From Accumulibacter sp. (GTDB lineage Bacteria; Pseudomonadota; Gammaproteobacteria; Burkholderiales; Rhodocyclaceae): a stretch of 64,000 nt of DNA. Of the stretch, positions 46,468 through 56,510 are shown piece after piece. The first letter of the stretch is position 1. Each line of letters begins with the position of its first letter. Both the position numbers and the translations under genes were made by a program. The DNA lies in contig JACKLW010000013.1 of assembly GCA_024235715.1 (NCBI GenBank), positions 80,649 through 144,648 on the forward strand, read 5' to 3'. The notes beneath the pieces are model-generated. The model worked only from the letters and a program-made list of their open reading frames with translations. It did no database searches and was not told the DNA's origin.

Positions 46468-49061
46468 TGCAGCAGCGCCTTCAGTTCGTAGAGTGCGTCG
46501 AGTGCCTCTCTCGGAGTCAAGCGATCCGGGTCGACGCTGCGCAGCCGTTCGAGCGCCGGATCGCTGACTGGCTCGTTCGCTTCGGCAGCGTTGGCAAGCG
46601 CCGTCGCGAACAGGTCTGGTTGCTGCGGGTTGATCGACGCGCGCTGCTCGAACTCGCGCAACTGTCGCCGCGCCGCCCTGACCACCGACGCGGGAATGCC
46701 GGCCAGCGCGGCGACCTGGATCCCGTAGCTCTGATTGGCCGGGCCTTCCTCGACCGCATGCAGGAAGACGATGCGCTCACCGTGTTCGACGGCGCCAAGA
46801 TGCACATTGGCCAGTTCGGCGTACTCGTTGGCGAGCAGCGTCAGTTCGAAGTAGTGGGTGGCGAACAGCGTCAGGCAGCGGTTCTTCTCGAGCAGGTGGC
46901 GACAGATGGCAAAAGCCAGCGCCATGCCGTCGAAAGTCGAGGTGCCACGCCCGACTTCGTCCATCAGCACCAGGCTGCGCTCGCTGGCGTGATGCAGGAT
47001 CGCCGCCGATTCGGTCATCTCGACCATGAAGGTCGAGCGCCCGGCGGCCAGATCGTCGGCCGCCCCGATGCGCGTGAAGATCTGGTCGAGTGGGCCGAGG
47101 ACGGCGCGGCTGGCGGGCACATAGCTGCCGATGTGGGCGAGCAGGGCGATCAGGGCCGTCTGCCGCATGTAGGTCGATTTGCCGCCCATGTTCGGGCCGG
47201 TGATCAGCAACAGCCGGCGCTCGTCGCCGAGACGCGTCTCGTTGGAGATGAAGCTCGCGCCCCCCGGCAACTGCTCTTCGACGACCGGGTGGCGACCCGC
47301 CTCGATCAGCAGGCCCGGTTCGGACGAAAACAGCGGCCGGCAGTAGTTGCGCAGCCACGCGGTTTCCGCAAAGCCGGCCAGCAGATCGACGTAGGCGACC
47401 GCGTGCGCGATCCGCTGCAATTGCGTCAGATCCCCCTGCAGGTCGCCAAGGACGCCGTCGTAGAGCAGCTTCTCGCGCGCCAGCGAGCGGTCCTTCGCCG
47501 ACAGGGCCTTGTCCTCGAAGGCCTTCAGCTCTGGCGTCAGATAGCGTTCGGCATTCTTCAGCGTCTGCCGACGGCGGTAATCGTCGGGTACCTTGGCGGC
47601 CTGCGCGTTCGTCACTTCGATGAAGAAACCATGCACGCGGTTGTACTCGACCTTCAGGTTGGCGATGCCCGTGCGCTCGCGTTCGCGTGCTTCCAGTTCG
47701 AGCAGGAAGGCGCCGCAGTTGTCGTTGAGCGCGCGCAGCTCGTCGAGTTCGCCGTCGAAGCCGTCGGCGATGACGCCGCCGTCACGGATCAGGCTGGCGG
47801 GTTCGGGAAGGATTGCCCGACTGAGCAGGTCGAGTGCAGCCAACGGTGTTGCCAGCTGTGCGTGCAGTTCGGCGAGCAGCGGCGCAGCGCTGCCGGCCAG
47901 CGGCGCACGCAGCTCGTCGAGACGCTGCAGGCTGTCGCGCAGGCTGGACAGGTCGCGTGGCCGCGCGCTGCACAGCGCAACGCGGCCAGCGATACGTTCG
48001 ATGTCGGCAAAGCCGCGCAGGGTCTGGCGCAGCGCGCGCAGCGTCTGCCCACCATCGTCGAGCAGCATGGCGATCGCCGCGTGCCGGGCGGTCGGGATCG
48101 CCGGATCGCGCAGCGGGTGGTGCAGCGCATGTCGCAGCAGGCGCGAGCCCATGGCGCTGATGCAGTTGTCGAGCAGGCTGCATAGCGTCGGCGCCGGTTG
48201 GCCGCGCAGGGTTTCGGTGAGCTCGAGGTTGCGCCGTGTCGCCGTGTCCAGTCCCAGGAAAGTCGCGTCGCGTTCGACGATCAGCGCCTGCAGGTGCGGC
48301 AGCGCACGTGCCTGTGTGGCCTGCGCGTAACGCAGCAGCGCACCGGCGGCGGCAATCGCCGGTCGCAGCCCTTCGGTGCCGAAGCCGGCGAGCGAGCTGG
48401 TACCGAAATGGGCGCGCAGTTCGCGGCCCGCCGCCTCGAAGTCGAAATGCCAGTCGGGCCGGCGGGTGAGTGCCGCGTCCGCCGCGAAACCGGCTTCAAG
48501 GCTCTCCGGAACGACGATCTCGGCCGGACGAATGCGCTCCAGCGTGGCCGCGAGTTTAGCCGGCGCGACTTCGCAGACCCGGAAATCGCCGCTCGCCAGG
48601 TTGATCCAGGCTAGGCCGGCGAGCTGCCGCGTCGCATGGATGGCGAGCAGCAGCGTGTCGCGCTTCTCGTCGAGCAACGCCGCGTCGGTCAGCGTTCCCG
48701 GCGTGACGATACGCACCACGGCACGTTCGACCGGACCCTTGCTGGTCGCCGGGTCACCGATCTGTTCGCAGATCACCACCGATTCGCCCAGCCTGACCAG
48801 CTTGCCGAGGTACTGCTCGACGGCATGGTAGGGCACGCCGGCCATCCTGATCGGCTGCCCGGCCGACTGACCACGGCTGGTCAGCGTTATGTCCAGCAGC
48901 CGCGCTGCCTTTTCCGCATCGTCGAAGAACAGCTCGTAGAAGTCGCCCATCCGGTAGAACACCAGCAGCCCGGGATGCTGCGCCTTGATGCGCAGATACT
49001 GCTGCATCATCGGGGTGTGCGACGGTTCTGTAGCGTCTGTTGCTTGTTGATTTTTCGGCAT
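46464..49061 (-). CDS. mutS: DNA mismatch repair protein MutS
   Basis: 865 residues. The N-terminal mismatch-recognition domain keeps the F-x-E core ([14 protein letters not shown]). The ATPase has [13 protein letters not shown] (Walker A), [15 protein letters not shown] (Walker B) and FATHYFELT. The C-terminal dimerisation segment is present. It stands at the left border of the integrated element: only about 90 bases separate its start codon from the repeats in front of the integrase, so its native promoter may have been replaced or moved. Confidence 0.98.
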
Positions 49062-49157
49062 ATTTCGCGCAAGCCGTTGATATGTTGGTTTAATTTTTTG
49101 GTGTCTCGGATGTCGCGAGGCTCAGGGAAGTCCAGCTAGACCTATCTACACTTCGCT

Positions 49158-49234
49158 TTTCAGTATAGGTTTTTTGGTGTATTTTTCAAAACCTATACCG
49201 CCGAATCGGCGGGCCCTGAAAACCTATACTGAAA
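49158..49234. repeat. Inverted and direct repeats upstream of the integrase
   Basis: TTTCAGTATAGGTTTT (49158-49173) and AAAACCTATACTGAAA (49219-49234) form a perfect 16-base inverted repeat. A third partial copy AAAACCTATAC sits between them at 49188-49198. The region is much AT-richer than its surroundings and ends eight bases before the integrase ATG. Likely integrase/excisionase binding sites, an attachment region, or an autoregulatory operator. Confidence 0.75.
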
Positions 49235-49241
49235 GATCGCC

Positions 49242-50543
49242 ATGGGGTTCGATGCGAGGGCAATCAAGTTACTACAGCCAGGGCAGCATATTACCAGTGC
49301 GGAGGCCCCTGGCCTTCGCGTAGAAGCCCACTCAGACCGAACGACGTGGACTTACCGATACCGGAGCCCGCTCGATCAGCGGTTGCGGCAGGTCAAGATC
49401 GGCATGTGGCCAGCCGTATCAGTGCATGCGGCGTTTGTCGCCTGGGAGAAGTTGCGCGATCAGCGCGATTCAGGCCGAGATCCTGCTGCTGAGGCGCGAT
49501 CCGAAAGAGAGCAGGCGCGGCTCGCCATCGTCGAGAAGGGTGCCGCAGCATCTCCGCCGTATACGGTGGCGCAGGTCTGTTACGACTACTGGCAAGGCCA
49601 TGTTGCGCCGACGCGAGCGAGCAAGGGCGTTACAGAGGTCAAACGCATGTTCGACAGGATGCTCTGCGATACGGGAAATCTGGAAGCGTCAAGAATCTCC
49701 CGTGCTCAAGCGTTTGATCTGATTAAGCGGTATGCCGAAACGGCGCCGGTGCAGGCCGGAAAACTGCGCGCGGAGCTAGGTGCAGCGTGGGACTACGCAG
49801 TTGACTCGGGAAGGCTGCCAGAGTCTTGCCCAAACTGGTGGCGGTTGATCATGCGGGGCAAGATCAGGTCAAAGGGGAAACAGATCGCTGGTGAGAAGGT
49901 TGGAACGGCTCAGAGAGTTCTGTCTGCAGACGAGGTTGGTGCACTGATTCGATGGCTGCCGAACTTTAGTCGGTTGATCGAGGACGCGCTCACTCTATAC
50001 CTCTGGACCTGCACGCGCGGTGCTGAGATTGTCGGCATGCAAGGGAGGGAGATTCATCGGGAAGCCGATGGTCTGGTGTGGTGGGTGATACCGAAGGCAC
50101 GAACCAAGAGTGCGCGCCACGAAAATTCCACGGACCTGCGCGTTCCCTTATTCGGTCGGTCTTTGGCTGTCGCCATGCGCCGGAAAGATCGTTACGGAGA
50201 CGGGCTGCTGTTCCCAACCAAAACGCGTGACGGGAAAATTCGTGCCGTCGAGCAGAAGACCATCCAGGCGACGGTCTATTTTCGCCAGCCGTACTGCCAG
50301 ACGCGGGTTGACACTACGCGGGCAAGGCTTCCCGTTTCGCGCTGGTCACCACACGATCTGCGGCGGACATCTCGCACGTTGCTTGCCGCAATGGGCTGTC
50401 CGGACGCGGTTGGAGAATCAATACTTGGGCACATGCTGCCTGGCGTGCTTGGTGTCTACAACAAGCACGCTTACGATTCTGAGCGGGCAGGGTGGCTCAA
50501 GCGACTTTCTGATCACCTGGAGTATCTTGCTGCTTCTGTGTAG
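49242..50543 (+). CDS. Tyrosine recombinase/integrase of the mobile element
   Basis: 433 residues. The N-terminal part resembles the P4-type arm-binding domain (LRVEAHSDRTTWTYRYRSPL, VKIGMWPAVSVHAAF). The catalytic domain keeps Arg near 260 (LWTCTRGAEI), HDLRR near 370, LGHMLP near 394 and the nucleophile Tyr near 406 (GVYNKHAY). It catalyses integration and excision. It is transcribed away from mutS, with AlpA-like gene and element cargo downstream. Codon use is less GC-biased than the flanks, consistent with transfer. Confidence 0.93.
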   Translation: MGFDARAIKLLQPGQHITSAEAPGLRVEAHSDRTTWTYRYRSPLDQRLRQVKIGMWPAVSVHAAFVAWEKLRDQRDSGRDPAAEARSEREQARLAIVEKGAAASPPYTVAQVCYDYWQGHVAPTRASKGVTEVKRMFDRMLCDTGNLEASRISRAQAFDLIKRYAETAPVQAGKLRAELGAAWDYAVDSGRLPESCPNWWRLIMRGKIRSKGKQIAGEKVGTAQRVLSADEVGALIRWLPNFSRLIEDALTLYLWTCTRGAEIVGMQGREIHREADGLVWWVIPKARTKSARHENSTDLRVPLFGRSLAVAMRRKDRYGDGLLFPTKTRDGKIRAVEQKTIQATVYFRQPYCQTRVDTTRARLPVSRWSPHDLRRTSRTLLAAMGCPDAVGESILGHMLPGVLGVYNKHAYDSERAGWLKRLSDHLEYLAASV

Positions 50544-50772
50544 CGACACGCGGTCTTCTTGCTCCGGTGTTGGGTGGAGGTGGAAGGTCGGACGCCGGCC
50601 GTGATTCGGCCCATTCCTCTATTTCTCGCAGCAGCCACCCGACGCGTCGCACGGATATTTGCCGCGGCTGAGGGAAATGGCCAGAACCAAGGCGCACCAT
50701 GGCCTGCACCGTTGATTCGGACAGGGTGAGCATTCTGGCCACGGTCGGAAGCTCGACGAAGATCTGCTTCAT
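50497..50772 (-). CDS. AlpA-family excisionase/regulator
   Basis: 91 residues from ATG 50772. The sequence LPTVARMLTLSESTVQAMVR followed by FPQPRQISVRRVGWLLREIEEW is the MerR-like winged HTH of AlpA, which in P4-type islands activates the integrase and helps excision. The 3' end overlaps the convergent integrase gene by 47 bases. Confidence 0.88.
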   Translation of the reverse strand: MKQIFVELPTVARMLTLSESTVQAMVRLGSGHFPQPRQISVRRVGWLLREIEEWAESRPASDLPPPPNTGARRPRVATQKQQDTPGDQKVA

Positions 50773-50821
50773 GGCCACCGCGCAGTCCTTGTGTCTTTTT
50801 CTTGGATCGCTCGGGATCGAA

Positions 50822-51541
50822 TCATTCGCCCGTACCCTCCCTGTTGCCCCCAGCCCCCGAACCCGTGACGGCGGCGATCGCCACTTTCCCGGTTCCCGAG
50901 ATGTCTCTGGCAGCACTTTCGCTCACCGAATTCTCAGACTCCACCATCGGAGTAACGCTCGCGTCAGCCACCGTCTCGCTCGCCGTTTCCTTCCGCCGTG
51001 CCGCCAGCACTGCACGCGTAGCGAGCTGCCGGATCTGTCCGGCCAGACGAAGAATCCGCCGCTTCCATTCATAGACCCCGCGCGCGTATTGGCTGTCGGT
51101 GATGACGCATGACAGCCAGAGCGCATCCAGGTGGGTCATCATCGCGTCGAACTCACGGATGATCGCCAGGTACTTGATCGCGCGCGGCGAGGTGATCTGC
51201 ACATCGATGGTCTTGGCACTGGTGTAGCCGATCGCGGTTTCGATGCCATTGCCCTCGGTAACTTCCTTCAGCCGCAGCGACTCCTTGCGAATCTCCTCCA
51301 GGGTCTGGTCGATCTGAGTATCGACCAAGGCATCGACTTTCTGCGCCTGCTCTTCGCTGCCGATGAATCGCAAGACCACACTCAACGAGAACAGCGCGTT
51401 CGCGCACATCTCGTAGCCACGGTCGAATATCTGCTGCGCGTGCAGCGAATTGAGCAAGGCCTTCTGCGTCAGGAAGGGCCGGCTGTTGTCCTGCCGGACC
51501 GATGGAATGTGCGTCGAATCGTTCCTCTGTCGCTGTGCCAT
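50822..51541 (-). CDS. ICE-type protein, possibly AcaB/DUF1845 (TIGR03761)-like
   Basis: 239 residues from ATG 51541. The central part (PFLTQKALLNSLHAQQIFDR, then SPRAIKYLAIIREFDAMMTH and the GVYEWKRRILRLAGQIRQL region) resembles proteins carried next to ssb on integrative conjugative elements, but I recall the family only loosely. The C terminus is Ser/Gly/Ala-rich. It is read on the opposite strand to the ssb module. Function unknown; a regulator or DNA-transfer accessory is possible. Confidence 0.6.
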   Translation of the reverse strand: MAQRQRNDSTHIPSVRQDNSRPFLTQKALLNSLHAQQIFDRGYEMCANALFSLSVVLRFIGSEEQAQKVDALVDTQIDQTLEEIRKESLRLKEVTEGNGIETAIGYTSAKTIDVQITSPRAIKYLAIIREFDAMMTHLDALWLSCVITDSQYARGVYEWKRRILRLAGQIRQLATRAVLAARRKETASETVADASVTPMVESENSVSESAARDISGTGKVAIAAVTGSGAGGNREGTGE

Positions 51542-51694
51542 CTGCCGTCTCCCGGAGTGTCGATCAACGCCAGCGTATCGCTTGCTCCGCGAGGGCGACC
51601 TTCGAAATGCGCCCAGAAGCGACGCATTTCAGACGCCTGCGACGATCGTGGCGGCAGAGAATTCAGCCATCTCTCGTTCCGTCTATGACGATCG

Positions 51695-51730
51695 AAGTGA
51701 AGGTAGCTGGCCTTCTTCATAAACAGCATT
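51695..51730 (+). promoter_or_regulatory. Repeated upstream box, copy 1
   Basis: AAGT-N3-GGTAGCTGGCC-N8-AAACAGCATT, ending 13 bases before the structured leader of ssb. A second copy with the same order lies before the RecE-like gene (53021-53057). Reading frames differ between the copies, so this is not coding conservation. A promoter or activator site is likely. Confidence 0.65.
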
Positions 51731-51743
51731 CTCTCCAACCCCC

Positions 51744-51782
51744 GGCGGGGTAGCCCCGTCAGGATACGGCGGCGTCCCTGCC
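51744..51782 (+). promoter_or_regulatory. Structured leader A, upstream of ssb
   Basis: GGCGGGG pairs with CCCTGCC (7 bp with one G-T), then a 2x2 internal loop, GCC with GGC, and CCGT with ACGG closing a six-base loop CAGGAT. The ssb Shine-Dalgarno AGGAGG starts ten bases downstream. One of five similar leaders in this element. Confidence 0.65.
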
Positions 51783-51801
51783 TTCCTTGTCAGGAGGCCA
51801 T

Positions 51802-52251
51802 ATGCCCTCGTTGAACAAAGTCACCCTCATCGGCCATCTCGGCGCCGACCCCGAGGTTCGCTACACCCAGAACCGAGAAGCGATCGCCACCATCCGGATC
51901 GCGACGACGGAGATCAGCAAGGACAAGTCGTCCGGTGAACGCAAGGAAACCACCGAATGGCACCGAGTGGTCTTCTTCAACCGTACGGCCGAAGTCGTCG
52001 GCGAGTACCTCAGGAAGGGCTCTCCGATCTACGTCGAAGGTCGCATCCAGACCCGCAAATGGCAGGACAACGCAGGTCAGGACCGCTACGTCGTCGAGAT
52101 CATCGGCAGCGAGATGCAGATGCTCGGCGCTCGTCCATCGGCGAAGGACGCCACGGCATCGGGTTCCGTCCCTCGTCGTGCCGACACGGTTTCGTCTGAT
52201 CAGGCAAGCAGTTCAGCCGGTGACGAAGTGCCGGCCATGGAGCCGTTCTGA
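51802..52251 (+). CDS. ssb: Single-stranded DNA-binding protein of the element
   Basis: 149 residues from ATG 51802, with AGGAGG five bases ahead. OB fold with [38 protein letters not shown] and [12 protein letters not shown]. The acidic tail ends EVPAMEPF, close to the canonical partner-binding tip. As an extra SSB on a mobile element it probably works with the RecE/RecT pair downstream. Confidence 0.95.
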
Positions 52252-52277
52252 GCAGGTCGTGACTTCTTTCCCCCACC

Positions 52278-52313
52278 GGGCGGTCATTCTCCCGGACCGG
52301 GAGCCGACCGTCC
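52278..52313 (+). promoter_or_regulatory. Structured leader B
   Basis: GGGCGGTC pairs with GACCGTCC (8 bp with one G-T). An inner stem CTCCC/GGGAG closes a five-base loop GGACC. AGGAGG of the next gene follows nine bases later. Confidence 0.6.
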
Positions 52314-52334
52314 TCCACCTCAGGAGGTTCGCTC

Positions 52335-52583
52335 ATGGAACGTGTCATTCTCGTCCTCGCCATGCTGGCAGGGCTTCACTTACTTCTGTCGTTTCTCCGT
52401 TGCTCAGCACAAGGCCTTAAGAGCTTGTTGAACCGTAGACCTGAAGCGATGGCAGCGTCCGAGCCGGTGAAGGTCACCAGCACCCATTGGCAGCAATACG
52501 ACCGACCGGCTTACCAGCGCCGGACCGGGATCGACATCGATCCCGCCAAGAGCGGTGAGGCTTCGTTTGAAGTGATCGCCTGA
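52335..52583 (+). CDS. Small membrane-anchored protein of the element
   Basis: 82 residues with AGGAGG ahead of ATG 52335. An N-terminal hydrophobic helix (VILVLAMLAGLHLLLSFL) is followed by a hydrophilic part (HWQQYDRPAYQRRTGIDIDP). Family not recognised. Its own structured leader and good ribosome site support it as a real gene. Confidence 0.6.
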   Translation: MERVILVLAMLAGLHLLLSFLRCSAQGLKSLLNRRPEAMAASEPVKVTSTHWQQYDRPAYQRRTGIDIDPAKSGEASFEVIA

Positions 52584-52592
52584 ACGCTCATC

Positions 52593-52633
52593 CCCCTGCG
52601 GGGCATCGCCTCCGCATCAGGGGAGGGATGCCC
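52593..52633 (+). promoter_or_regulatory. Structured leader C, with possible pseudoknot
   Basis: GGGCATC (52601-52607) pairs with GATGCCC (52627-52633), and an inner stem CCTCC/GGAGG closes the loop GCATCAGG. In addition the upstream CCCCTG (52593-52598) is complementary to CAGGGG (52618-52623), which would form a pseudoknot partly competing with the inner stem. GGAGG follows within 20 bases. Confidence 0.65.
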
Positions 52634-52657
52634 TTTATTTCTTAATGGAGGCATCTC

Positions 52658-52735
52658 ATGGCACTCGTTCTTCTTTCTTGCTGCATCACCGGCTGGATCA
52701 TCAGCCGTCCGATTGTTCGCGCGCTGGGGCTCTGA
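52658..52735 (+). CDS. 25-residue putative membrane peptide
   Basis: MALVLLSCCITGWIISRPIV then RALGL. It has GGAGG at a proper distance from ATG 52658 and follows leader C. One hydrophobic helix. Its stop lies two bases before the next ATG, so it may be a leader peptide coupled to that gene. Confidence 0.4.
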   Translation: MALVLLSCCITGWIISRPIVRALGL

Positions 52736-52737
52736 AG

Positions 52738-52929
52738 ATGGCTTTCGACCCCGCACACGATCAAGTCGTGCAATCCAATCCGCTTCTCGTTCGGCTTTTT
52801 TCGGCGCTCTCGATGAATCGTGCCTGCGATCTCCACCAGAGACTCCAGGCAGGACGCACCGACCCGGAAACCCGCCAGCTGCTTCGACAGGCTCTGGCGC
52901 TCTCGAAGCAAGAACAAGCAGCGAACTGA
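52738..52929 (+). CDS. Small hypothetical protein of the element
   Basis: 63 residues from ATG 52738, probably translated by coupling to the 25-codon ORF that stops at 52735. Helical and charged (HDQVVQSNPLLVRLFSALSM, ETRQLLRQALALSKQEQAAN). Family not recognised. Confidence 0.5.
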   Translation: MAFDPAHDQVVQSNPLLVRLFSALSMNRACDLHQRLQAGRTDPETRQLLRQALALSKQEQAAN

Positions 52930-53020
52930 ACCACGCCCCGGCTTGCCGGGGCTTTCCCGAGTGCGTTTCCAAAGCGCCTTCCGGAAAGCAGCCTTTGATC
53001 GAGCGATTCTTCGCCCGAGC

Positions 53021-53057
53021 AAGTCGCGGTAGCTGGCCGCACGAAACAAACAGCATT
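53021..53057 (+). promoter_or_regulatory. Repeated upstream box, copy 2
   Basis: AAGT-N3-GGTAGCTGGCC-N9-AAACAGCATT, the same arrangement as copy 1 at 51695-51730 with one extra base in the second spacer. It lies 11 bases before structured leader D. Confidence 0.65.
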
Positions 53058-53068
53058 TTCATCCACCC

Positions 53069-53117
53069 AGCCGGGGAGGCCCTCTCCGGAAGGGGCTGGT
53101 GACTCCGGCTTTTTTTT
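53069..53117 (+). promoter_or_regulatory. Structured leader D, terminator-like, upstream of RecE-like gene
   Basis: AGCCGG pairs with CCGGCT, with a GG bulge, AG/CT, GCC/GGT and an inner stem CTCC/GGGG around GGAA. The 3' arm runs directly into eight T residues, so this copy could act as an intrinsic terminator or attenuator ahead of CTGGAGG and ATG 53129. Confidence 0.65.
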
Positions 53118-53128
53118 CTGGAGGCACC

Positions 53129-53962
53129 ATGGACGTCAGACATCCTGGCCTGCTGCGCATGCCGGCCAAGCAATACCACGCCGATCAATCGATCGGGCAT
53201 TCGGGAATCATCAAGCTGCTCAAGAGCCCCGCGCATCTGCGCGAAGCCCTCGATCATCCGTCGCCACCCACGCCGGCGATGGCGTTTGGGTCCGCGGTTC
53301 ACACCCACGTCCTCGAACCGGATCGTTTTTCCGAAGAGTTCGCGGTGGTCGAGAAGTTTGATCGCCGCACCAAGGAAGGCAAGGAAGCCGCCGCCCGCTT
53401 CGAACAGGAAAATCAGGGCAAAACCCTGATCACTTCCGACGATCTGGCGACATTGACCCGAGTGCGCGCCGCCGTTCACGCGCACGAGGGGGCGGCCCGC
53501 CTGTTCACGCAGGGAGAGGCCGAGCTGTCGGCGTTCTGGACAGACCCGCTCACTGGGATCCGCTGTCGCTGTCGTCCGGACTGGTTCAACGGGACGGCCG
53601 TGGTGGATCTCAAGAGCTGTGTCGATGCCAGCAGCCGCGTTTTTTCTCGCGCCATCGCCAACCTCGGCTACGACATTCAAGCGGCGTTCTACGTCGATGG
53701 AATGAAAGCCGTGACCGGCACGGAGCTGCCCTTTCTCTTTGTCGCCGTCGAGAAGGAGGCTCCCCATGCCGTGGCGCTTTACCGGGCTGACCCCGAAATC
53801 ATCGAGGTCGGTCGCAAGAAGTACCGGGCAGCACTACAGCTTCTGAAGTGGTGCCAGGATGCCGGAAGCTGGCCGGCTTACCAGCCCGGGGGTGAGATCG
53901 AATTGATCTCGCTACCGCGTTGGGCAGCCAACACCGACGCTTTCGAGTTCGACGCCGCCTGA
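53129..53962 (+). CDS. RecE-like PD-(D/E)XK exonuclease (exonuclease VIII type)
   Basis: 277 residues from ATG 53129 with TGGAGG upstream. The N-terminal segment YHADQSIGHSGIIKLLKSPA and AFGSAVHTHVLEP is typical of the phage exonuclease VIII C-terminal-domain family. The nuclease core has an Asp near 150 (RCRPDWF) and DLKS near 159-162. It would resect double-stranded ends to give ssDNA for the RecT protein encoded next. Only the nuclease domain is present, unlike the much longer E. coli RecE. Confidence 0.88.
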   Translation: MDVRHPGLLRMPAKQYHADQSIGHSGIIKLLKSPAHLREALDHPSPPTPAMAFGSAVHTHVLEPDRFSEEFAVVEKFDRRTKEGKEAAARFEQENQGKTLITSDDLATLTRVRAAVHAHEGAARLFTQGEAELSAFWTDPLTGIRCRCRPDWFNGTAVVDLKSCVDASSRVFSRAIANLGYDIQAAFYVDGMKAVTGTELPFLFVAVEKEAPHAVALYRADPEIIEVGRKKYRAALQLLKWCQDAGSWPAYQPGGEIELISLPRWAANTDAFEFDAA

Positions 53963-53991
53963 TCGGCGGCCATTCTTAGTTTATCAACCCC

Positions 53992-54036
53992 GGCGGGGAG
54001 ACCAGTCCCCGCTCCGGGAGGCATGGTGTCTCCGCC
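53992..54036 (+). promoter_or_regulatory. Structured leader E, upstream of recT
   Basis: GGCGG pairs with CCGCC. After a GG bulge AGA/TCT and CCA/TGG continue the stem, and TCCC/GGGA closes the top. TTGGAGG of recT follows. Its 5' edge AACCCCGGCGGGG nearly repeats that of leader A. Confidence 0.65.
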
Positions 54037-54056
54037 ATTTGTATTTGGAGGAAACC

Positions 54057-55118
54057 ATGTCTCAAACCTTGCGTAACATCCAAAGCGCCCGTCAGGGGAA
54101 TACGACCAGCGTGGTGTCTTTTCCAGCGATGCTGGAGCGATTCAAGGGCGAAATCGCCCGTGCGCTGCCCAAGCATCTGAGTCCGGACCGCATGGCGCGC
54201 ATCGCACTGACTGCGTTTCGGATGAATCCGACGCTGTCTGAAGCGGATCCGCGCAGTGTCTTCGCGGCGGTCATCCAGTCCAGCCAGCTCGGTCTGGAAA
54301 TCGGTCTGATGGGTGAAGCGTACCTCGTGCCAATGGGTAGCCAGTGCCAATTGATTCTCGGCTATCAGGGGCTCGTGAAACTCGCGCGCAACAGTGGCAG
54401 CGTGCAGGACATCTATGCGCACGAAGTGCGGATCAACGACAAGTTCGACATCGTCTTGGGCCTCAACCGTTCCTTGATACACGAGCCGTTGAAGAAGAAC
54501 GGCTTCCCGGCGTCCGACGACGAGCGCGGAGCGATCGCCGGTTTCTACGCCGTGGCGGTGTTCAACGATGGCTCACGCACCTTCTACGCCTTGTCGAAGG
54601 AGCAGGTCGAGTGGGTACGTGACCACTCCCGCGGTTACCAGATGGCCAAGAAGAAGCGAAAGGAGAGTCCCTGGGACACGCATTTCGTTCCGATGGGCCT
54701 CAAGACGGCCATTCGCCGCCTGTGCAATCTGCTGCCGAAATCGCCGGAGCTGGCCATGGCACTGGCCATGGACGAACTCAACGAACGCGGTAAGACCCAG
54801 AACATCGGGATGGCCGAGGCGATCGACGGCTCCTGGGCTCCGATCATCGACGACGAATCAAGTGAATCGAAGAGTAACGAGGCGGGGGCGGGCGACCAGA
54901 AGTCCGGTCGTGAAGGTGGCAAACCGCCGCTCGATACGCTCCTCGCCAGCATCGGCCAGGCCGCATCCGTTGATGACCTCGACGAACTCTACGCCGAGGC
55001 TGAAGACGCCGCCGACGACGGCGATCTTGAGCAGTTGCTTCGTGCCTACCGCAGTCGTAAGGCAGCGTTGACCGACACGGCTTCACCGGTCAGTGCGATT
55101 GTCGGCGTAGCGAAATGA
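54057..55118 (+). CDS. recT: RecT-family single-strand annealing protein
   Basis: 353 residues from ATG 54057 with GGAGG upstream. RecT core: IALTAFRMNPTLSEADPRS, VIQSSQLGLEIG, AYLVPMGSQCQLILGYQGL, VRINDKFDIVLG and the THFVPMGLKTAIRRLCNLLP block. It anneals complementary strands produced by the upstream nuclease. The C-terminal third is acidic and low-complexity, probably a linker or partner-binding tail. Confidence 0.95.
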   Translation: MSQTLRNIQSARQGNTTSVVSFPAMLERFKGEIARALPKHLSPDRMARIALTAFRMNPTLSEADPRSVFAAVIQSSQLGLEIGLMGEAYLVPMGSQCQLILGYQGLVKLARNSGSVQDIYAHEVRINDKFDIVLGLNRSLIHEPLKKNGFPASDDERGAIAGFYAVAVFNDGSRTFYALSKEQVEWVRDHSRGYQMAKKKRKESPWDTHFVPMGLKTAIRRLCNLLPKSPELAMALAMDELNERGKTQNIGMAEAIDGSWAPIIDDESSESKSNEAGAGDQKSGREGGKPPLDTLLASIGQAASVDDLDELYAEAEDAADDGDLEQLLRAYRSRKAALTDTASPVSAIVGVAK

Positions 55119-55142
55119 GCGCCCCGCGAGGAAGTGATCGCG

Positions 55143-55469
55143 GTGTCTCTACCCATGGCCGATGGCCCGAGGCCACGACAAACGGCTGCGGTCCGCACCG
55201 AGCGAGCAGAAACACCTGGCGAAGGCTACCCGTGGTCTGACGATGACCTCGTCAGGCTCCACAGGCGCCTGCTGCACAAGTCGCTGCGCGCTCTGTTCGA
55301 TTCGAGGGTCTGCGCCACCACACGGGTGGAGATCCTCGACTGGCTGCTGTCCCCGAAGGATTGCTCGAACGCCTTCTCGTACCACGCGTGCTGCGCGCTT
55401 TCTGGCCTCGATCCCGAAGTGATTCGGGATCGGGTGCTGGAACGCTACCGGCGACGCGATCCCCGATAA
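55143..55469 (+). CDS. Hypothetical protein downstream of recT
   Basis: 108 residues from GTG 55143, chosen because GAGGAAG lies at a proper distance; GTG 55134 is too close to it. The core WSDDDLVRLHRRLLHKSLRA followed by VCATTRVEILDWLLSP looks conserved-protein-like, with several cysteines later (NAFSYHACCALSG). No family recognised. It ends at a strong hairpin. Confidence 0.65.
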   Translation: MSLPMADGPRPRQTAAVRTERAETPGEGYPWSDDDLVRLHRRLLHKSLRALFDSRVCATTRVEILDWLLSPKDCSNAFSYHACCALSGLDPEVIRDRVLERYRRRDPR

Positions 55470-55472
55470 ACT

Positions 55473-55527
55473 CCCGGCGGCAACGCCGGGCTTTCCGCAG
55501 AGGGTTGACGCAGCCCTTTGCGGAAAG
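55473..55527 (+). terminator. Double hairpin ending the recombination module
   Basis: CCCGGCG-GCAA-CGCCGGG followed by CTTT (55473-55494), a plausible intrinsic terminator. It is directly followed by a second inverted repeat, CTTTCCGCA with TGCGGAAAG (55491-55527), with inner AGGG/CCCT. Confidence 0.7.
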
Positions 55528-55812
55528 CGGATCCTGGCGTTGGCGCCGGCGGGCCGGTGAAATTCTCCGTGTTGCTGCGAGGTGGTGCGCCCCAGGTTTG
55601 CATTTCGGGACGGATATGGCTCAGGCGAGAGGTCTTGCCTGACACGATCTGACGACAGACCGAGCTGCGGGCGCGCGGTGGACACAAGTAGCCAGGACTC
55701 TGCAGCCGATGGTTGCCGCGGGTCGGCAAGAGCTGTTCGAAGGCTGCGACGTCAATTGTGATGCGAACGTCCGCTGTGCCGCGTAAAGAAGACGGGTTTG
55801 CGGTCGGCTCCA
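55528..55812. other. Non-coding stretch in element
   Basis: 285 bases with no ORF that I trust on either strand. Several short GC palindromes and no clear promoter. Possibly degraded sequence at the right side of the element. Confidence 0.4.
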
Positions 55813-56106
55813 ATGACTCCTCTTCGGCCAAAGCGGCCGTTGGCGCCGCATGGCGCGGACGGCCGGTATAGCGCCTTGACCGGACGTACGGGAAGAAATT
55901 GCGCCGAACGGCTGCTTCGACTTTTCGCCGTCATCAACGCGGTATCGCGCAGCCAGGTTGCCTATCTATTCGACCTGGCCAGCGATCTGGATGAGCAGGT
56001 TTCCCACATGATGACCAATCTGGAAGAGGTACAGGCTACGCTATCGCAATTGACGGCGCTGTACTCAGACAGCTTGTGCCATGGAGGCCTGGACGGCGAC
56101 GAATGA
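55813..56106 (+). CDS. Hypothetical protein, possible remnant
   Basis: 97 residues from ATG 55813, without a clear ribosome site. The first 30 residues are low-complexity. The rest (LLRLFAVINAVSRSQVAYLF, DLDEQVSHMMTNLEEVQATL) looks like a genuine helical protein. It overlaps the next small ORF by 26 bases. Confidence 0.4.
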   Translation: MTPLRPKRPLAPHGADGRYSALTGRTGRNCAERLLRLFAVINAVSRSQVAYLFDLASDLDEQVSHMMTNLEEVQATLSQLTALYSDSLCHGGLDGDE

Positions 56107-56242
56107 TGGCTGGCCGCCCCTACTCTGGCCCATCAAGCGTCAGGTCGCCACGGCGGATCGCATCGCCAACCACAAGGGACGCAATCCGCAGGAACGCGCC
56201 TCCCTGAAAAAGCGCCTGCTGCGCAAGCGGATGAGCAAATGA
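56081..56242 (+). CDS. 53-residue basic hypothetical protein
   Basis: From ATG 56081. The C-terminal half (RQVATADRIANHKGRNPQER then ASLKKRLLRKRMSK) is strongly basic and reads like a real protein end. No strong ribosome site; coupling to the overlapping upstream ORF is possible. May be a fragment. The 268 bases after it hold only a CCCCAGA/TCTGGGG inverted repeat near 56297-56322. Confidence 0.4.
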   Translation: MEAWTATNDGWPPLLWPIKRQVATADRIANHKGRNPQERASLKKRLLRKRMSK

Positions 56243-56510
56243 AGCTCCCGCTTACTCCAAGGTGGAGGCCGGTGTGGTGACACAACTACTTGTTCTGCCC
56301 CAGATTAACGGAATTTTCTGGGGTTCCGGCTTACAACCTCGACATGCACGCGTGACGAATCGCCGCTGGAGGCGCGACTACGGCGCTCGGTAGCGTGGTC
56401 TGCGTGGCGCTGTCAGAGGGCTGAAGGGTTGTCGGATGCCTGTCCTGAACTTCATTCCAGTTTCCATGGCTTTGATTCTTGTAGATCAGTTGATGAAGTT
56501 GGCGCGTCGA

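Follow-up and report, generated by a model that had tools for sequence, protein, structure and literature searches.

Repeated leader RNAs with competing pairings over the Shine-Dalgarno region precede recombination and antirestriction genes in Accumulibacter, related plasmids and islands

Background

Competing hairpins set access to the Shine-Dalgarno (SD) sequence in attenuators and in the anti-SD/anti-anti-SD expression platforms of riboswitches, and hairpins that hide the SD are common in bacterial mRNAs. Metastable folding is known from the hok mRNA of a mobile element, where nascent and mature RNA fold differently and the nascent form is inactive. To our knowledge, switches that hide the SD have been described for individual genes only. 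Here we analyse five structured leaders in an ssb-recE-recT module of Accumulibacter sp., together with their relatives on other elements. The module lies in a stretch of 64,000 nucleotides (assembly GCA_024235715.1, contig JACKLW010000013.1, positions 80,649 to 144,648), the whole of which is called the window below. These leaders probably form a single family of bistable RNAs that regulate, in cis, translation of the gene following each of them. In contrast to attenuators and riboswitch platforms, they have no recognised aptamer or leader peptide, and the device is repeated more than 20 times on a single element. They contain no conserved unpaired core except a U-tract, and a pseudoknot with invariant loop precedes just some of them. 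They differ from hok in that the predicted minimum just before synthesis of the SD leaves the SD region free.

Two described RNA motifs are associated with similar genes. According to PMC2864571, STAXI RNA (RF01728), listed for Enterobacteriales, is a pseudoknot occurring in two or three repeats near ssb, topoisomerase, antirestriction and integrase genes, and radC RNA (RF01754) is listed as a proteobacterial cis-regulatory candidate. The types of neighbouring genes are alike for STAXI and our leaders. Identity of the two, raised in an earlier reading of the window made from its sequence alone (the sequence-only reading), was nevertheless not borne out, as cmscan gave no STAXI match in the window (gathering score; E≤10 on parts of it) or in the related loci scanned. 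One switch leader does precede a radC gene (L055:24457-24523), and no cmscan match to RF01754 was obtained at the gathering score, at E≤1 in loci L055-L057, or at E≤10 in 51500-56200. No Rfam family covers the switch in scans at the gathering score and, on parts of the window and related loci, at E-value level. Description of these leaders was not found in the literature searched, which left out most subscription papers and a 2017 RNA-motif paper.

Structured leaders at start codons

Structured leaders had been proposed in the sequence-only reading before ssb, an 82-aa open reading frame (ORF), a pair of small ORFs, the recE-like gene and recT. All of the hairpins were found at these places (Table 1), and every leader lies directly 5' of a start codon and contains an SD. 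Selection on RNA shape, suggested there as well, is upheld by orthologous leaders, which are found in as many as 15 further loci (recT) with altered sequence and retained shape and whose pairings covary. Minimum free energy (MFE) folds of these orthologues often display two hairpins, the second one over the SD, instead of one long hairpin. When pairing of the SD was forbidden, the long hairpin often returned, and this behaviour pointed to a bistable RNA. The long hairpin ascribed to each leader is present as one stem (A:B, see below), but the same B strand can instead pair with the SD region, which had not been described.

To define the family, RecT relatives on plasmids were collected (222 records) and three plasmids were taken from among the 30 matches listed. 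On these plasmids, similar leaders are located ahead of many genes around recE and recT. A regular-expression search over the loci then known yielded 83 leader candidates. MAFFT alignment A1 comprises 36 leaders (35 regular-expression candidates and the window recE leader), and covariance model R1 was built from it with nine A:B pairs as sole structure. Window copies of recT and recE leaders are in this training set, and no ssb, 82-aa or small-ORF leader is. With filters off, R1 assigned the highest scores in 49000-56500 to exactly the five leaders; the sixth-best match (10.5 bits) is on the opposite strand and overlaps the recT leader.

Genome-wide R1 searches scored limited numbers of first-look candidates per genome (150 of 1139 in the own genome, 82 in relatives, 13 in the class and 16 in the phylum), so the genome counts, which include the own genome, are lower bounds; R1 E-values are rough. 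Three matches at E≤1 were detected in the own genome (recT, recE and small-ORF leaders), all of them in the window. At least 22 of 61 relatives are positive at E≤0.05, often with several matches per contig, as are at least 27 of 369 genomes of the class (E≤0.001) and at least 13 of 299 genomes of the phylum. Clusters of matches are carried by pKLC102 and by betaproteobacterial plasmids that also bear conjugation genes, and they are present in genomes from beyond this order. The homologous leaders that one would look for in related elements thus exist on relatives, plasmids and islands. For further analysis, the 150 best of 239 R1 matches (E≤0.02), originating from 52 partly overlapping loci, were aligned as A2; 97 of these leaders are below 75% mutual identity. 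A DNA similarity search of the own genome with the ssb leader returned the leader itself and seven short matches (E 0.03 to 4.7).

Stability over dinucleotide shuffles, which had been expected of all five window leaders, is modest and constitutes weak evidence. It was seen for four of them, namely small-ORF (z -4.1, 0/500), recT (z -2.8, p 0.014), recE (z -2.1, p 0.038) and 82-aa ORF (z -2.0, p 0.042), and the ssb leader is not outstanding by this test (z -1.3, p 0.106).

Two exclusive pairings share strand B

Six segments follow each other in the leaders: C-run (1), A (2), A' (3), G-run (4), B (5) and SD region C (6). In a swap test, the duplex energy of a leader's own segments was compared with that obtained when the same segment was taken from other leaders (97 non-redundant leaders, 5000 permutations). 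A:B is the strongest own-specific pairing (own/foreign -18.87/-13.07, z -19.5), and B:C (-13.12/-9.65) and A:A' (-12.49/-10.33) are own-specific as well, with 0/5000 in all three cases. Control pairings A:C (1020/5000), A':C (1243/5000) and A':B (2097/5000) are not. The three pairings remain at 0/5000 among leaders of less than 65% (53 leaders) and less than 55% identity (15 leaders). With 51 leaders dissimilar to the training set, A:B, B:C and C-run:G-run each gave 0/5000. Segments A, B and C differ among leaders of one element. When six elements were tested one by one, three others having too few leaders, own-specificity (p<0.01) of both A:B and B:C was seen in pSTJ2 (n=8), Simplicispira (9), G426 (9), G555 (6) and G674 (6).

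Since B:C pairs are absent from R1, this pairing is not favoured by the structure of the model, whereas A:B pairs are part of R1 and A2 consequently leans towards them. A:B covariation was also followed column by column on A1, an alignment made without fitting to structure. There, 87.0% of A:B cells are paired, and double changes number 27, shuffles giving 10.8 (0/500). Counting only the pairs in which both sides change gave 6 versus 4.3 (45/500). On A2, 116 double-change cells compare with 35 (0/500). One variable B:C column pair covaries, with T or C in B and A or G in C (TA 40, TG 13, CA 3, CG 23; Fisher p 1e-7). The leaders are thus bistable and SD-sequestering in the sense that two mutually exclusive pairings, one of them over the SD, are both evolutionarily kept.

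Predicted order of folding

We propose that in a closed state the 5' part of the leader would fold on itself (1:4 and 2:3) and B would pair with the SD region (5:6), shutting the gene. In an open state A would capture B (2:5) and the SD would be accessible. In the growing RNA, the minimum would pass from A:A' to A:B, at a time when the SD is not yet made, and then to A:A' together with B:C. Folding of transcripts cut before the SD gave A:B as minimum in 76 of 97 leaders and A:A' in the remaining 21. Full-length MFE folds contain B:C in 85 leaders and A:B in 11, and lie a median of 8.7 kcal/mol below the best fold with free SD region. All three stages occur in sequence in 65 of 97 leaders; in chimeras carrying foreign C, A or B, the mean numbers are 49, 46 and 20 and the maxima 56, 52 and 25, respectively (ten rounds each). 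Given this order of minima, the nascent leader could pass through the open form, and the finished leader would settle in the closed one unless held open.

Placement on plasmids and islands

The sequence-only reading had suggested an element-wide set of leaders, and the set proved to be wider than the ssb-recE-recT module. More than 20 leaders occur on a single plasmid, and the range spans Accumulibacter, pKLC102 and a plasmid of Enterobacter. Genes preceded by leaders include ssb, recE, recT, radC and ardC, among others. Sulfuricystis plasmid pSTJ2 (103 kb) possesses F-type transfer genes, though it is typed as non-mobilizable. R1 gave 23 matches on it at E≤1. The 17 plus-strand matches are all in 66.5-87.5 kb, and five of the six on the minus strand correspond to these hairpins read in reverse, one (75940) being separate. 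No match falls in 22-62 kb, where transfer genes were seen. Twelve of the 17 end exactly at annotated starts. Of the other five, three point to in-frame positions within genes whose annotated start is farther 5', one stands before a 27-aa ORF missing from the annotation, and one (E 0.31) has no matching annotated gene. In record NZ_AP018720.1 (L055, L069), leaders at 71531, 82693 and 85359 indicate in-frame starts downstream of annotated ones, that of radC included, and the unannotated 27-aa ORF is at 66618.

A Simplicispira plasmid (140 kb, circular record) yielded 25 matches at E≤1, every one of them on the plus strand and located in either 114-140 kb or 1-5.2 kb; in the annotated stretch examined, eight of ten end at annotated starts. 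A Delftia plasmid has 27 matches, located in 47-80 kb and 246-251 kb, and 26 of them share a strand. On pKLC102, nine plus-strand matches (E≤0.0135) fall in 40.8-48.8 kb and eight end at annotated starts, the genes behind them including a STY4534-family replication protein and a helicase. Two further matches are probably noise, one at E 0.17 on the strand opposite a leader and one at E 0.95, and none was found in the pilus and transfer genes seen at 30-40 and 57-70 kb. A P. veronii plasmid has five R1 matches at E≤1 and an Enterobacter ludwigii plasmid eight; like pKLC102, they were found via DUF3275. Two plasmids found via RadC (Aeromonas, Citrobacter) were devoid of R1 matches, and Megablast of three phylum-search loci against plasmids, and of one against E. 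coli genomes, found nothing. In viral contigs, two patterns gave one match each, with a full leader not established at the first.

Of the 150 best matches, 143 open a complete ORF, always of at least 25 aa; 119 of these ORFs (83%) have at least 40 aa, compared with 49% of random positions open for 40 codons. Protein families encoded downstream comprise RecT (11), DUF3577 (11), DUF3799 (7), RadC (6), DUF932 (4), DEAD (4), the ArdC N-terminal domain (2), PRTRC_E (2), SSB (1) and others, a tally covering 107 of 140 distinct proteins and dependent on the loci sampled. The 25-aa hydrophobic ORF of the window (52658-52735) has its own switch leader, and several other leaders, such as L031, L032 and L055:8446, likewise precede ORFs of 25-28 aa. 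A coupling of translation to the upstream stop codon was considered and rejected: distances scatter from -39 to 259 bases with a median of 29 (96 of 97 leaders), and there is hence no fixed spacing.

A likely pseudoknot module upstream of some leaders

Ten bases 5' of the ssb and recE leaders, a further module is located, which the other three window leaders lack. Its stem varies in sequence and keeps its pairing, and the downstream CAGC is complementary to the loop, so that an H-type pseudoknot is likely. The pattern has two matches in the window and none in 100 shuffles; counting the own genome, 12 of 61 relatives contain it, and the reversed pattern, used as a control, gave none. A scan for stem and loop pairing gave 91 matches (47 unique) versus 52 in reversed sequence, and the 37 unique matches with loop TAGCTGG are its convincing part. 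Copies with a GCGG stem resemble an ops site; other copies do not.

The module also bears likeness to DUF3085 RNA (RF02959), which reportedly originates from a 2017 paper on 224 candidate RNAs. Its consensus (AGCUGG hairpin, second hairpin, CAGCC, then CAACCC..CGGG) fits the pseudoknot module together with the initial bases of the switch leader. RF02959 scored 27.3 bits at L099:8082-8150 (cmscan), and on the Simplicispira plasmid five of seven sub-threshold matches overlap the 5' end of an R1 leader. None of nine records reached the cut-off of 40.6 bits, the best score being 28.6 bits on a relative, and cmscan listed no RF02959 match within the window, where the DUF3085-type features (AGCUGG hairpin and downstream CAGC) are present just in the modules before ssb and recE. 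Because weak matches appear in 5 of 14 control genomes too, the link to DUF3085 RNA rests mainly on alignment and position. The consensus stops before A', B and SD and so does not describe the switch.

A probable translational switch and alternative explanations

Control of translation is favoured since B is linked to the SD region and A, by competing for B, would release that region; from this we infer that folding controls translation in the cell. Several observations weigh against this interpretation. Column by column, B:C does no better than shuffles (78.8% versus 78.7% paired; 10 versus 6.1 double changes, 31/500), which we think is due to register shifts and to the SD and AUG being unable to vary. 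Support for B:C thus comes from register-free tests and one column pair. B:C is not significant in G455 (p 0.10, n=5), nor is A:A' in G555 (p 0.20). For the 51 leaders that do not resemble the training sequences, own-specificity of A':G-run was weak (121/5000), and one control pairing, A':C, came out marginal (55/5000). The MFE folds of these leaders pair at least two start-codon bases in just 16 of 51 cases, and all folds are equilibrium folds of isolated leaders. In the window itself, B:C is the energy minimum, with the SD hidden, in just the small-ORF and recE leaders. The recT leader keeps A:B in its MFE, a few C bases upstream pairing up to the SD, and the ssb and 82-aa ORF leaders pair the SD with upstream bases. 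The ssb leader has weak B:C in the window copy, yet B:C is in the MFE of its orthologues L014-L022, and 82-aa ORF orthologues from the same loci pair B with the SD across about 7-11 bp. By these folds, two window copies appear to fit the closed form, one seems biased towards the open form and two would be divergent copies with low R1 scores.

A further point against the translational switch is the U-tract after A:B: at least five T in eight bases are found in 73 of 97 leaders and at least six in 56, compared with 3.6% and 0.8% of random positions. The translation model does not need this tract, nor is the tract linked to the A-run before the SD, and this makes transcription attenuation, alone or within a combined gate, a serious rival. 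The A:B hairpin with its U-tract would then be an intrinsic terminator acting ahead of each gene. Readthrough would require that A be sequestered by A' or that an antitermination factor, possibly loaded at the pseudoknot, travel with the polymerase, and B:C would be a second lock. Predominance of A:B when C is absent and the pseudoknot before two of five window leaders, as a start-of-unit signal might be placed, agree with this mechanism. Termination alone leaves the covariation of B with the SD region unexplained, and in the window the U-tract is strong in the recE leader only (A:B stem followed by eight T), being broken in the ssb, recT and small-ORF leaders and missing in the 82-aa ORF leader. 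Attenuation is the main rival, possible but less likely than not. A terminator scan of 51500-55600 found 9 sites versus 3.7 by chance, five of them inside leaders, and is uninformative because its loop limit excludes the long A:B stem. Most genes of the DNA-establishment block of pKLC102-like integrative and conjugative elements and MOBH plasmids might each carry a three-stage RNA gate. Ordinary transcripts would end at or near the leader, and only transcripts in a special state (fresh, still growing, or made by pseudoknot-modified polymerase) would be translated. We regard this gate as speculative and rather doubtful.

Presence of B:C in most full-length MFE folds would also suit plain insulation, in which constitutive SD-hiding hairpins and a protective 5' hairpin keep read-through transcripts untranslated or stable without switching. 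Such a static lock would not need A:B, the strongest own-specific pairing and the one that covaries column-wise in A1, and insulation is accordingly quite improbable. It is unlikely, too, that a single trans-acting RNA or protein encoded by the element sets the switch by binding a feature common to all leaders. The leaders do share ACCC, CGGG, GGGG, GGTG and GGAG and a U-rich spacer; these shared G/C bases fall in segments predicted to pair, loops and flanks hold little information beyond the U-tract, and no other shared single-stranded recognition sequence was found in the leaders. As A, B and C differ among leaders of one element, a common regulator would need to recognise shape or the few shared bases. 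Single-stranded DNA promoters are known in leading regions, and several leader genes (ssb, antirestriction) are of types discussed for such regions (PMC11541004). The leaders might by analogy act as single-stranded DNA structures in transfer (Frpo/ssi-type promoters or origins) and not as RNA. The link of the pairing to the SD, at a constant position ahead of the start codon, argues against this, as does a simple scan of 51500-55600 in which no sigma-70-like -35/-10 pair was seen, and we consider it very improbable.

Genomic context of the module

Relatives of the window are Candidatus Accumulibacter bins. The module consists, in order, of genes for a tyrosine integrase, an AlpA-type regulator, ssb, the 82-aa ORF, the 25-aa and 63-aa ORFs, a recE-like nuclease (DUF3799), recT and a 111-aa ORF (Table 1). 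Its gene order is kept in 16 further loci, some of them truncated or without parts. RecT identity is about 78-92% in Accumulibacter loci and about 72-74% in Sideroxydans, Sulfuritalea and Gallionella bins. Accumulibacter genome ACC003 harbours two copies of the module on different contigs (L009, L010). Apart from betaproteobacterial bins, the module was found in bins labelled actinobacterium (L020) and Anaerolineaceae (L022), by either misbinning of contigs or transfer. In 49242-51541, the integrase gene adjoins mutS and the AlpA-type gene overlaps a 239-aa ORF on the other strand; no tRNA gene was found in the window. Related hairpin copies (73%), GGGCTTTCC...GGAAAGC, are situated at 52949-52989, between the 63-aa ORF and recE, and at 55488-55528, behind the 111-aa ORF. 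The latter is very stable (-56.1 kcal/mol for the 80-nt segment at 55481).

Table 1. Genes, switch leaders and pseudoknot modules of the recombination module (window coordinates)
Feature	Position	Strand	Remarks
Tyrosine integrase	49242-50543
AlpA-type regulator	50497-50916	opposite strand
Pseudoknot module before ssb leader	51699-51728	+	stem GAAGG/CCTTC, loop TAGCTGG; loop GCTG complementary to CAGC 51724-51727
ssb switch leader	51738-51804	+	A:B = 51744-51755 with 51771-51782; SD 51792-51797; ATG 51802; R1 20.0 bits
ssb, single-strand DNA-binding protein	51802-52251	+	Pfam SSB, E 2.3e-36
82-aa ORF switch leader	52270-52337	+	A GGGCGGTC, B GACCGTCC; SD 52322-52327; R1 14.4 bits
82-aa ORF, conserved	52335-52583	+	without Pfam or PHROG match
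Small-ORF pair switch leader	52590-52660	+	A 52601-52607; B 52627-52632 with 52650-52655; SD 52647-52651; R1 37.6 bits
25-aa hydrophobic ORF, conserved	52658-52735	+
63-aa ORF	52738-52929	+	without Pfam or PHROG match
Pseudoknot module before recE leader	53026-53055	+	stem GCGG/CCGC, loop TAGCTGG, CAGC 53051-53054
recE switch leader	53065-53131	+	B 53098-53108 with 53118-53128, one mismatch, over SD 53120-53124; R1 58.8 bits
recE-like exonuclease (DUF3799, exonuclease VIII type)	53129-53962	+	Pfam DUF3799 1.2e-45; phrog_412 3.8e-95
recT switch leader	53987-54059	+	A 53992-54004; B 54024-54036; SD 54047-54051; ATG 54057; R1 66.9 bits
recT, single-strand annealing protein	54057-55118	+	Pfam RecT 1e-39

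Conclusions

The leaders follow one self-contained design with varied sequence and kept shape, and look like an undescribed family of gene switches. On such elements they are a tool to locate start codons and small ORFs missing from the annotation, and they offer a possible context for DUF3085 RNA. The special-state gate, if true, would set when a whole regulon (ssb, recombinase and antirestriction genes) is expressed, for instance immediately on arrival of the element in a new cell. If control of translation by the leaders holds, a class of conjugative elements would regulate its DNA-handling and antirestriction genes post-transcriptionally, gene by gene.

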